Positions 60,614 through 64,000 of a DNA stretch of 64,000 nt are shown here, one piece after another. Numbering within the stretch: the first letter of the stretch is position 1; every line of letters begins with the position of its first letter. The stretch is from positions 124,001-188,000 of the forward strand of contig NZ_JANTHZ010000006.1 in assembly GCF_024752355.1 (NCBI RefSeq), written 5' to 3'. This stretch comes from Ancylobacter mangrovi. Lineage in GTDB: Bacteria > Pseudomonadota > Alphaproteobacteria > Rhizobiales > Xanthobacteraceae. Position numbers and translations under genes: made by a program. Under the pieces are notes generated by a model. The model did no database searches. It saw only the letters and a program-made list of their open reading frames with translations, and was not told the origin of the DNA.

Positions 60614-63046
60614 ATGAATAAACGGAGCCTCACCGAACGCGACATCTGCACCAAGTTCATCTTGCCGGCCATCAAGCGTGCCGGCTGGGACGAGATGGTG
60701 CAGGTTCGGGAAGAGGTCTATTTCACCAAGGGCCGGATCATCGTGCGCGGCAAGCTGGTCACGCGCGGCAAAGCGAAGAAGGCGGACGTCGTTCTCTATT
60801 ACAAGCCGAATATCCCGATCGCGCTGATCGAGGCCAAGGACAACAATCATTCGGTCGGCCACGGCATCCAGCAGGGGCTCGATTATGCCGCGACGCTGGA
60901 TATCCCCTTCGTGTTTTCCTCGAATGGCGACGGCTTCGTGTTCCACGACCGCACCGGCCTAAGCGTTCCGGTCGAAACCAATCTCGGCCTTGATGCCTTC
61001 CCCTCGCCGGCCGAGCTGTGGGTGCGCTATCGCGCGTGGAAGGGCTTGGACCCTGAAGCCGAGCAGATCGTGCTTCAGGATTATTTCGACGACGGCAGCG
61101 GCAAGGCCCCGCGCTATTACCAGGTGAACGCCGTCAACGCCGCGATCGAGGCAATCGCCAAGGGCCGCGACCGTGTGCTGCTGGTCATGGCAACCGGCAC
61201 CGGCAAGACCTACACGGCGTTTCAGATCATCTGGCGCTTGTGGAAGGCGGGTCGCAAGAAGCGCATCCTGTTCCTCGCCGACCGCAACGTGCTGATCGAC
61301 CAGACGATGGTCAACGATTTCCGCCCGTTCGGCGCGGCGATGGCGAAACTCTCGACCAACGCAAAGACCATCGAGCGGCAGGACGGCACCAAAGTCGATC
61401 TGCCGCTGGCGCTCGATGGCAAGCGCCGCATCGACACCGCCTTCGAAATCTATCTCGGGCTCTATCAGGCGATCACCGGGCCGGAGGAGCGGCAGAAGCT
61501 CTATCGCGAGTTCTCGCCCGGCTTTTTCGACCTGATCGTGATCGACGAATGCCATCGCGGCAGCGCCGCCGAGGACTCGGCCTGGCGTGAAATCCTTACC
61601 CACTTTGCCGACGCCACGCAGATTGGCCTCACCGCGACGCCGAAGGAGACCGAATACGTTTCCAACACCGACTATTTCGGCGAACCGGTTTTCACCTATT
61701 CGCTTAAGCAGGGGATCAGCGACGGCTTCCTCGCGCCCTACAAGGTCATCAAGGTTCACATCGACCGCGACGTGGAAGGCTACCGGCCCGAACTCGGCCA
61801 GCTCGACCGCGACGGCAATGAGGTCGAGGACCGCATCTACAACACCAAGGATTTCGACCGGCATATCGTGCTCGACGACCGCACGGTGCTCACCGCGAAG
61901 AAGATCACCGAGTTCCTGAAGGAAAGCGGCGATCGCTTCCAGAAAACCATCGTATTCTGCGTCGATGAGGAGCACGCCGCGCGGATGCGGCAGGCGCTCG
62001 TTAACGAGAACGCCGATCTGGTCGCCGAAAATCAGCGCTACGTCATGCGCATCACCGGCAGCGACAAGGAAGGGCAGGACCAGCTCGGCAACTTCATCGA
62101 TCCGGAATCGCGCTATCCCGTGCTGGTGACGACCTCGCGGCTGCTCTCGACCGGCGTCGATGCGCAGACCTGCCGGCTGATCGTGCTCGACCGGGCGGTA
62201 GGCTCGATGACCGAGTTCAAGCAGATCGTCGGGCGCGGCACCCGCGTTCACGAGGACAGCAAGAAATTCTTCTTCACGCTGATCGACTTTCGCGGCGCGA
62301 CCAGCCATTTCGCCGACCCGGATTTCGACGGCGACCCGGTTCAGATTTATGAGCCCGGTCAAGACGACCCAATCACGCCGCCCGATGGCTTCGAGGAGGG
62401 TGAGCAGGCGACTTTCGAGCCGTCGGCTGAGGAGACCATCGTCGGTGAGCCAGGCCTGCCTGTGCCGCTGGGCGACCCGATCCGAAAGATATATGTCGAT
62501 GGCGTCGGCGCCCGCATCCTGGCCGAGCGCGTGGAATATCTCGACGAGAATGGCAAGCTCGTCACGGAATCCCTTCGCGACTTCACCAAGACGGCGCTGA
62601 AAAAGCGTTTCGCAAGCCTTGGTGATTTCCTCAAGCGCTGGAAATCGGCCGAGCGCAAGCAGGCGATCATCGAGGAACTGGAAGCCGAGGGCCTGGCGCT
62701 CGACGCGGTGGCGGACGAAATCGGCAGGAACCTCGATCCCTTTGATCTGATCTGCCACGTCGCTTTCGACAAGAAGCCTCTAACCCGCCGCGAGCGGGCC
62801 GAAAACGTGAAGAAGCGCGATGCGTTCACCAAGTATGGGCCGCAGGCCCGCGCGGTACTCGATGCGCTCTTGGAAAAGTATCGCGACGAGGGCGTGCTCA
62901 ATCTCGACGACGCCAACGTGCTGAAGGTGACGCCCTTCACCGCGATGGGCAGCGTCGTTCAACTTATCAAGGCGTTCGGGGGCAAGGAGGGTTTCGAGAG
63001 GGCCGTCCATGAGATGCAGGACGCGCTCTACCAGGAGACCGCCTAG
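60614..63046 (+). CDS. hsdR: Type I restriction endonuclease subunit R (HsdR, EcoEI-type)
   Basis: An 810-residue motor and nuclease subunit of a type I restriction-modification system. The nuclease motif is D58 with EAK at 73-75. Walker A is ATGTGKT (193-199), the DEAD-box is DECH, motif III is LTATP, and motif VI is QIVGRGTRVHED. The C-terminal part (LTRRERAENVKKRDAF, FGGKEGFERAVHEMQDALYQ) fits the EcoEI_R_C domain. It cuts unmodified DNA after ATP-driven translocation, together with HsdM and HsdS, which are not within the window. Lower GC than the preceding genes suggests transfer. Confidence 0.93.
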   Translation: MNKRSLTERDICTKFILPAIKRAGWDEMVQVREEVYFTKGRIIVRGKLVTRGKAKKADVVLYYKPNIPIALIEAKDNNHSVGHGIQQGLDYAATLDIPFVFSSNGDGFVFHDRTGLSVPVETNLGLDAFPSPAELWVRYRAWKGLDPEAEQIVLQDYFDDGSGKAPRYYQVNAVNAAIEAIAKGRDRVLLVMATGTGKTYTAFQIIWRLWKAGRKKRILFLADRNVLIDQTMVNDFRPFGAAMAKLSTNAKTIERQDGTKVDLPLALDGKRRIDTAFEIYLGLYQAITGPEERQKLYREFSPGFFDLIVIDECHRGSAAEDSAWREILTHFADATQIGLTATPKETEYVSNTDYFGEPVFTYSLKQGISDGFLAPYKVIKVHIDRDVEGYRPELGQLDRDGNEVEDRIYNTKDFDRHIVLDDRTVLTAKKITEFLKESGDRFQKTIVFCVDEEHAARMRQALVNENADLVAENQRYVMRITGSDKEGQDQLGNFIDPESRYPVLVTTSRLLSTGVDAQTCRLIVLDRAVGSMTEFKQIVGRGTRVHEDSKKFFFTLIDFRGATSHFADPDFDGDPVQIYEPGQDDPITPPDGFEEGEQATFEPSAEETIVGEPGLPVPLGDPIRKIYVDGVGARILAERVEYLDENGKLVTESLRDFTKTALKKRFASLGDFLKRWKSAERKQAIIEELEAEGLALDAVADEIGRNLDPFDLICHVAFDKKPLTRRERAENVKKRDAFTKYGPQARAVLDALLEKYRDEGVLNLDDANVLKVTPFTAMGSVVQLIKAFGGKEGFERAVHEMQDALYQETA

Positions 63047-63049
63047 CCG

Positions 63050-64000
63050 ATGCAAGCGCAATCAGAAGGCTTTGGACGCACGATTCAGCTTTTTCTGGTC
63101 GATGGTATCCCCAACGGGCTCATCATCGCGTCTATTCACGGCTGGACGGGATCGGTGGTGGTGGCTAGCCAAGCCACTTTCGACAAGCTGCGCGCTCGCC
63201 CTGAGGCAGATCGCTCGGGTGTCTATATCCTGTTCGGGCCGGATCCCGACGATCCGTTGTCCATGCGCGCCTACATCGGCGAAGCAGACTATGTGAAGGA
63301 TCGCATCAACCAAAGTGCCGAGGAACGCGCGTTCTGGGAAACTGCCGTCATAATCTCGACGAGCGACGAGACACTGACGAAAGGCGATATTCGCTACCTT
63401 GAGGCACGCCTAATCGAACTGGCGAGCGAAGCCGGGCGTGTGAAACTGGACAATGGGCAATCTCCAAAGCCCGACCGTAGACCCCTCCCCGAGGCCGGCC
63501 GCGCCAATATGGAAGCTTTCCTCGCGAATTTGCGGGTGATCCTCCCGGTGGTTGGGCTCGATCTGCTCAAGCCAAGACCACGCGCAATATCCACGACAGA
63601 ACGGCCAGCCAAAACGGACACCGGCCAGAAATTCGAAATCCGACATAAGAGTAATGTCCAAGCAACAGCGATCGAAGAAGACGGCGAATTCGTCGTTCTC
63701 GCCGGGAGCCAGGCGCTAAAGAATGCTGGATACGTCGGAGCAAACAGCTATGGCGAGCTCAAAAACGAGTTGATCGCTCAAGGAGTACTCACGACGATCG
63801 ATGGCGCCGGCGTCTACACGTTTGCCCGCCCGTACGTGTTCCGCAGTCCCTCCGCCGCCTCGGCGGTAATCCTAGATCGAAATTCGAATGGCCGGCGAGA
63901 ATGGAAGGTTGTTAACTCTGATCTCACTTACCATGAGTGGCAAGAACAGAAGACCACCCAAGAAGATGCAGCCGAACGCTTGATGCTGTCTCCCGAAAAT
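63050..64000 (+). CDS. GIY-YIG nuclease-family protein with DUF4357 domain (3' end missing)
   Basis: The frame is open from ATG 63050 to the window end (317 residues visible) with no stop. It begins 3 nt after the hsdR stop. The GIY-YIG core is visible as GVYILFG (residues 57-63) and YIGEAD (75-80). The C-terminal part with SPSAASAVILDRNSNGRREWKV resembles DUF4357, which is often found beside GIY-YIG domains in restriction loci. It is probably an accessory nuclease or regulator of the type I system. Base composition is the lowest in the window. Confidence 0.85.
   Translation, partial: MQAQSEGFGRTIQLFLVDGIPNGLIIASIHGWTGSVVVASQATFDKLRARPEADRSGVYILFGPDPDDPLSMRAYIGEADYVKDRINQSAEERAFWETAVIISTSDETLTKGDIRYLEARLIELASEAGRVKLDNGQSPKPDRRPLPEAGRANMEAFLANLRVILPVVGLDLLKPRPRAISTTERPAKTDTGQKFEIRHKSNVQATAIEEDGEFVVLAGSQALKNAGYVGANSYGELKNELIAQGVLTTIDGAGVYTFARPYVFRSPSAASAVILDRNSNGRREWKVVNSDLTYHEWQEQKTTQEDAAERLMLSPEN

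Follow-up and report, generated by a model that had tools for sequence, protein, structure and literature searches.

At the end of a 64,000-nucleotide stretch of the Ancylobacter mangrovi genome (positions 124001-188000 of its contig, hereafter the window), a gene for a protein with a GIY-YIG-like core and a DUF4357 tail lies between hsdR and hsdM of a type I restriction-modification (R-M) operon. We propose, at a probability of about one half, that this protein would be an independent accessory nuclease, a second restriction-type effector directed against otherwise modified DNA. The features on which the argument turns, in window positions, are the following.

60614-63046, + strand: hsdR, 810 aa, type I restriction subunit of the EcoAI/FtnUII family
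63047-63049, + strand: spacer CCG, 3 nt, from the hsdR stop to the GIY-YIG start; counterpart of the 3-nt spacer before hsdM in relatives with an empty junction
63050-64015, + strand: GIY-YIG/DUF4357 gene, 321 aa, ATG start; the window holds 63050-64000, the first 317 of its 321 codons
63077-63466, + strand: GIY-YIG-like region, about residues 10-139, with Y59, Y75, G77, R85, E118 and N135
63761-63910, + strand: DUF4357 domain, residues 238-287, inside the C-terminal region (residues 187-321), which has a weak likeness to RAMA in most of the aligned relatives
64017-65471, + strand: hsdM, just beyond the window on the same contig
65468-67195, + strand: hsdS, just beyond the window on the same contig

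The GIY-YIG/DUF4357 protein

The DUF4357-like tail reported in the initial annotation was recovered by PF14267 at 50.4 bits, over the Pfam gathering score of 38.4, and every one of the 85 aligned sequences matched this domain at E<=10, with a best value of 1.5e-22 (the alignment of relatives omits L051 and L085, which have overlong reading frames). The GIY-YIG core claimed with it is supported by three lines of evidence. Residues Y59, Y75, G77, R85, E118 and N135 are the same in every one of the 85 sequences of the alignment, the window protein among them, and all of these except G77 were also invariant in 13 of 13 sequences that included sister groups; we take Y59, Y75, R85, E118 and N135 to be the GIY-YIG active-site tyrosines, arginine, glutamate and asparagine. 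The sequences that keep these presumed active-site residues come from several phyla, and the suspicion that most homologues might lack catalytic residues finds no echo in the alignment. The Pfam GIY-YIG model (PF01541) matches 59 of the 85 sequences at E<=1, with a best value of 8e-6. Finally, the AlphaFold model of the window protein (predicted local distance difference test score, pLDDT, 89.8) gave as its top three rows in VIA-align the N-terminal domain of a plant glutaredoxin (2lwf), UvrC and R.Eco29kI, at Z 7.5, 5.7 and 4.2 respectively, the first of which we also assume to have the GIY-YIG fold. Sequence searches of solved structures with the protein returned nothing relevant. The GIY-YIG nuclease core is apparently intact.

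The PADLOC models for PDC-S14 match the protein over residues 8-305 (E 1.4e-108, profile positions 23-317 of 320). Sister proteins keep the N-terminal core and carry other tails in L009, L013, L014 and L017 or no tail in L011, L012 and L015 and, because they share the core and differ in or lack the tail, the core behaves as a module in these comparisons. The sister proteins with other tails in L009 and L014 had no Pfam match at E<=0.01.

The hsdR/hsdM junction in related operons

HsdR-based searches of 372 genomes of the class and 398 of the phylum yielded 48 loci (L102-L117 and L123-L154); the phylum search also met a short HsdR fragment in G595 and repeat places in G278 and G066, which were not taken into the loci. 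After removal of 7 loci with hsdM upstream of hsdR and 3 with no hsdM in the stretch, 38 comparable operons remained, and the GIY-YIG gene was absent from all of them (0/38). In the three closest (L102, L123 and L124, with 87-88% HsdR identity) the junction is empty: the hsdR stop is followed by 3 nt and then by the hsdM ATG. The window departs from this layout once past the hsdR stop and rejoins it at the hsdM ATG with no visible scar, hsdM resuming right after the insert at ATGATCGTCCGCAC, which is the same in L124 and nearly so in L123. A junction gap of more than 200 nt was found in 7 of the 38 operons (L103, L104, L125, L132, L134, L142 and L143), and a different gene was found in a plasmid operon outside this sample, as listed here for the hsdR/hsdM junction.

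L103, L104: ORFs (open reading frames) without Pfam or PADLOC match, labelled by eye as cysteine-peptidase-like and cyclase-like
L125: a Mrr_cat protein
L132: an AbiEii-like protein (24.6 bits, cut-off 22.5)
L134: a SHOCT protein
L142, L143: ORFs mostly on the other strand
L189, plasmid operon with 69% HsdR identity, the best plasmid match: an FRG-domain gene

Since the three closest operons have an empty junction and others have different genes there, the GIY-YIG gene is optional and movable cargo that was inserted seamlessly and not a fixed partner, and the idea that its product is a fixed subunit of this R-M system was rejected in view of the empty-junction relatives. The initial annotation had placed a nuclease-like partner between HsdR and the HsdM and HsdS then missing from view: the position holds, and the implied fixed component is not supported, given junctions that are empty or otherwise filled in relatives and copies of the gene found without hsd genes. 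By the same comparison, the junctions of this HsdR subfamily are acceptors of different accessory genes.

Other insertions were seen in passing. The 176-aa ORF at the L103 junction has a C39/papain-like pattern by eye (LCGPYAIVNAF ... YHWIVAH) and no Pfam or PADLOC match, and L189 also has a NucS-like gene between its hsdM and hsdS. YhcG (DUF1016) nuclease genes lie between hsdM and hsdS in two EcoAI-family operons (L129:6284-7393 and L131:6892-7932). Of two gaps between hsdM and hsdS, the one in L105 probably arises from the choice of match and the one in L140 is uncertain.

Distribution and gene order of the family

Genome loci of the GIY-YIG family were taken as the best 80 of 175 relatives found via one peptide pattern, and hence form a non-random sample; the hidden Markov models used to find hsd genes were built from these 80 loci themselves, and only representatives were checked in Pfam. 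The gene stands between codirectional hsd genes in 50 of the 80 loci, in at least four orders, of which M-GIY-S and S-GIY-R may be cut contigs. The commonest arrangement is M-S-GIY-R (36 loci), followed by R-S-GIY-M (5), R-M-GIY-S, M-S-R-GIY and M-GIY-S (3 each), M-GIY-S-R, M-S-GIY and reversed neighbours (2 each), GIY-M (2, one of them weak), S-GIY-R (1) and GIY-S-M (1, at least 7 kb away). Both HsdM and HsdS were present in the examined DNA of 57 loci. In 20 of the 80 loci the examined DNA, some of it on short contigs, showed no hsd gene, and because of them the gene seems able to exist without a type I enzyme.

A sample of the class gave a GIY-family match in 17 of 385 genomes, the window's own genome and the sister groups counted. 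When the wider neighbourhood was inspected in four relatives from the class, one (L119) had the order R-M-GIY-S and three (L118, L120 and L121) had no hsd gene; with three of four in this state, type I operons may house a smaller share of the family than the 80 loci would lead one to expect. Operons with a different, 1060-aa type of HsdR carried the gene in 4 of 20 cases, again with some short contigs. The 20 are the top 22 of 58 places less two (a second place in G545, and G429), and the 4 of 20 may be high, as the HsdR query was itself taken from an operon with the GIY gene (L064) and L157, one of the 20, is probably the same record as L097. The four with the gene include L176, a distant relative at 27-32% identity. 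The gene was also found in 52 plasmid records; of four annotated plasmid regions, three resemble type I operons (one with its S gene annotated as hypothetical) and the fourth has a methyltransferase on the other strand and no annotated R or S gene. A phage origin for the gene was rejected, with matches in just 2 of 50,697 phage records. Taken together, the loci portray an optional and widely travelling gene, whose tie to type I operons is strong and not exclusive.

Two recurrent neighbourhoods were noted. In L032, L033, L034 and L185, from sphingomonads and a Mesorhizobium, the order is hsdM, a membrane-protein-type gene, the GIY-YIG gene and hsdS; the membrane-protein-type gene is 8xMP where checked, in L032 and L185 only, and in L032, L033 and L185 the set is preceded by hsdR and followed by an AAA ATPase gene. 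Where adjacent hsd genes are missing, genes for GHKL-type (HATPase_c) ATPases were seen near the GIY-YIG gene, on a plasmid of Rhizobium (L188:3860-8915) and in a metagenome-assembled genome of Hyphomicrobiales (L022:7048-9906).

Co-diversification with the hsd genes

Distance correlations were computed for the 25 loci having M, S and R of set lengths, with 999 shuffles and host kinship uncontrolled. The correlation was 0.98 for M-R, 0.82 for M-S and 0.76 for S-R, and 0.68, 0.66 and 0.56 for GIY-R, GIY-M and GIY-S; the largest values reached in shuffles were 0.59 for M-R, 0.51 for GIY-R, 0.52 for GIY-M and 0.54 for GIY-S. Part of the correlation can be due to the shared ancestry of the host bacteria. 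Mean identity among the same loci is 0.31 for HsdS (minimum 0.13) as against 0.64 for the GIY-YIG protein (minimum 0.42), and since HsdS diverges so much further, it appears unlikely that the work of the GIY-YIG protein depends on one recognition sequence.

The operon, its composition and its flanks

The continuation of the contig beyond the window (L002, numbered as window position minus 60000) supplied the hsdM and hsdS genes that the initial annotation had proposed to look for downstream. The operon has the order R-GIY-M-S, with its genes tightly packed on one strand. The ATG of the second gene at 63050 confirms the 3-nt distance from the hsdR stop at 63046, and its own stop (64015) is 1 nt before the hsdM ATG (64017); the ORF list puts the hsdM start at a GTG at 64005, overlapping that stop, and the ATG at 64017 is the one that matches the hsdM start in relatives. 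HsdR scores 1157.5 bits against NF046051, the EcoAI/FtnUII family model, over its curated cut-off of 550. By eye, its translation has a PD-(D/E)XK-like N-terminus (ADVVLYY...IEAK...QQGLDYA), a Walker A motif (GTGKT) and DECH. HsdM has the Pfam domains N6_Mtase (PF02384, 248 bits) and HsdM_N (PF12161, 53.7 bits), and HsdS has Methylase_S (PF01420, 58 bits). With this family match and these domains in one operon, it looks like a complete EcoAI-family type I R-M operon, whose activity is predicted from its genes. The idea that the GIY-YIG protein substitutes for a defective HsdR nuclease was rejected, as HsdR retains the nuclease-like and helicase motifs seen by eye and a full family score. Two further candidates were rejected: a known RNA element between the genes, for which Rfam on L002 1-9000 yielded a tRNA only, and a promoter between the genes, for which a pattern scan gave 0 matches against 1.9 expected by chance.

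The drop in GC content that had been remarked upon is clear. GC is 0.615 in hsdR, 0.563 in the GIY-YIG gene, 0.632 in hsdM and 0.635 in hsdS, against a mean of 0.686 (standard deviation 0.024) for 966-nt pieces of window positions 1-60000, and 0 of 123 such pieces are as low as 0.563. GC at third codon positions (GC3) is 0.83, 0.62, 0.87 and 0.75 in the same four genes and is lowest in the GIY-YIG gene. The contig continues beyond hsdS with the following features.

67192-67551, + strand: 119-aa ORF, overlapping the hsdS stop
67789-68037, + strand: 82-aa ORF
68145-68218, strand opposite to the hsd operon: tRNA-Gln (Rfam)

The 119-aa ORF has a GC of 0.561 and a GC3 of 0.617, like the GIY-YIG gene, and gave no Pfam match and no plasmid match. 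In a genome of the same genus (G460, L181) the ppx side, a label taken from the initial annotation, and the tRNA-Gln are conserved, and the approximately 7.1 kb between them consists of other ORFs; no hsd gene was noticed there by eye, and no HsdR match was found genome-wide at E<=1e-120. Because G460 shares these flanks and carries other ORFs between them, the operon was likely acquired horizontally at a variable spot, in keeping with the acquisition first suggested; G460 does not serve as an empty-site control for the island. The interval between ppx and tRNA-Gln (the latter at 68145-68218 here) differs within one genus, with an R-M operon in the present genome and other ORFs in G460 (L181:4290-11420), labelled by eye as a 1466-aa autotransporter-like protein, an IalB-like protein and a resolvase-like protein.

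Possible roles of the accessory gene

The favoured interpretation can be put as follows. The operon is a complete-looking, likely horizontally acquired EcoAI-family R-GIY-M-S set, with an accessory gene at the hsdR/hsdM junction whose product would join a GIY-YIG core to a DUF4357/RAMA-like tail that binds DNA or reads its modification. The tail would bring the nuclease to DNA entering the cell, probably to DNA that its modification renders a poor type I substrate, and the core would then cut such DNA, so that the operon would cover unmodified as well as modified phage DNA. The cleavage, the role against phages and the type of DNA recognised are what we infer. Points in favour are the full hsd set, a cargo that is optional and swappable, the invariant presumed active-site residues, the repeated association with type I operons of divergent specificity, the copies without hsd genes, and matches of the RAMA model (PF18755) in 64 of the 85 tails at E<=10 (best 5.7e-5). 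There is precedent in TgvAB, a type IV system of the GmrSD kind that sits inside a V. cholerae type I operon and on its own protects against phages with modified DNA (PMC11411939), and in the mention of GIY-YIG-RAMA fusions as possible type IV enzymes (PMC11037411). The base that type I HsdM methylates is adenine. A nuclease able to cut all DNA with N6-methyladenine (6mA) is unlikely here, because it would cut the host's own DNA, which would be adenine-methylated by an adjoining HsdM of divergent specificity; therefore, the tail may read some other feature or bind DNA at large, or else the activity is gated. A doubtful extension, offered as speculation, is that the protein is a specificity-independent reader-nuclease that would work with any type I methylase, tolerating the 6mA pattern of the host whatever the specificity of HsdS and attacking foreign or excess modification, or acting when the host complex is inhibited. 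If so, the reader-nuclease would be a portable second layer fitting any hsd junction.

Several results weigh against an independent modification-directed nuclease. The window protein itself had no match to the Pfam GIY-YIG model up to E 10, the fold matches of its model are modest (Z 7.5 or less), and Foldseek with the full model gave none at E<=0.001. The tail alone gave no fold relative, with Z 3.3 or less in VIA-align and no Foldseek match at E<=0.001. Its relation to RAMA is weak, the PF18755 matches among relatives being faint and the window protein having none; solved RAMA structures appeared neither in the sequence search nor among the fold rows listed for the tail, an absence that has no weight as counter-evidence. 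The R-GIY-M-S order was seen in the window alone, in 0 of 38 HsdR operons and 0 of 80 GIY loci, and the GIY-R and GIY-M correlations beyond those of the shuffles allow for some functional coupling to the type I complex. The TgvAB precedent falls short of full independence, as protection by TgvAB alone was 10- to 100-fold below that within its cluster (PMC11411939); and among the 14 P. aeruginosa strains that carry PDC-S14 in one panel, 57% were classed as phage-susceptible, with no link to resistance seen there (PMC10855318).

A functional tie to the type I enzyme could take the form of a guard. The protein would be silent while bound or restrained by HsdRMS and, once freed by a phage anti-restriction protein that disables the complex, would cut DNA or RNA and stop the infection, and a known guard, PrrC, is indeed embedded in a type IC operon (PMC12707154). 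We regard this as unlikely: the placement amid hsd genes at 50 of the 80 loci and the tracking of HsdR and HsdM distances would fit it, but no hsd gene turned up in the examined DNA of 20 of the 80 relatives (some contigs being short), partners as unlike as the EcoAI-type and the 1060-aa HsdR make a conserved docking surface not obvious, and the GIY-R correlation is far under that of M-R (0.68 vs 0.98). A helper or regulator, which might trim or nick DNA during translocation, dispose of HsdR products or limit self-damage, would account for the tight operonic packing, 3 nt after hsdR and 1 nt before the hsdM ATG, and for the partial co-diversification with R and M. However, the closest operons manage without the gene, only 4 of 20 operons of the 1060-aa HsdR subfamily have it, and it also occurs where no hsd gene was found, all of which leaves such a role decidedly improbable.

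It is also conceivable that the gene is a mobile or selfish passenger merely riding in the operon. GIY-YIG domains occur in homing enzymes, and GC3 is lower in the GIY-YIG gene (0.62) than in hsdR, hsdM or hsdS. Against a homing-type passenger, several different hsd junctions are occupied, with the gene running in the direction of its hsd neighbours in 50 of the 80 loci, the presumed active-site residues are invariant across several phyla, and defence-type proteins (Mrr and AbiEii-like) are among the other genes that fill this junction in relatives; we give this account very little weight. Between the additional effector and the regulator that the initial annotation had offered as alternatives, the effector is favoured, as a candidate role and not a demonstrated one.

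Comparison with known systems

PDC-S14, to whose models the window protein matches at near full length, is named as an uncharacterised PADLOC candidate in PMC10855318 and PMC11719660 and overlaps GAO_29, a restriction-like system (PMC10855318); the R-GIY-M-S placement in an EcoAI-family operon is not in the parts of its published descriptions available to us, and the accessible portions of the literature searched held no tested function for PDC-S14 or for GIY-YIG/DUF4357 proteins. Non-hsd genes embedded among hsd genes are found in several other systems, namely PrrC, a guard anticodon nuclease in the EcoprrI type IC operon (PMC12707154), rloA/rloB, genes of unassigned function in Campylobacter jejuni (PMC2928727), and DarTG2, a toxin-antitoxin in an E. 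coli type I system (PMC12255303); these are other kinds of protein, set apart from ours by their descriptions and not by sequence. The likeness to TgvAB lies in accessory restriction genes that sit inside a type I operon and complement it; TgvAB differs as a two-protein GmrSD-like system whose function was experimentally tested.

The same two-part architecture as the one we tentatively assign to the window protein appears in one discussion sentence of a study of winged-helix type IV enzymes, where GIY-YIG-RAMA fusions are mentioned as possible type IV enzymes and proposed 6mA readers (PMC11037411). The RAMA domain of MPND was found to bind DNA without sequence preference and with no significant preference for 6mA in the available text of PMC9963953, which cites earlier work on 6mA-selective binding by the same domain and describes backbone contacts by the RAMA domain of CcrM. 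The type I context of the present gene speaks against indiscriminate cutting of methyladenine DNA, and so constrains the published suggestion: a simple cutter of 6mA DNA is improbable beside adenine methylases of divergent specificity. Extra defence genes embedded in type I operons are an already published kind, and the GIY-YIG family is an already listed candidate. To these the present locus adds a close comparison, in which the same EcoAI-type junction is seen empty, with the GIY-YIG gene or with other genes at base resolution, and it narrows the vague PDC-S14 candidate down to a few mechanisms that experiments can address.

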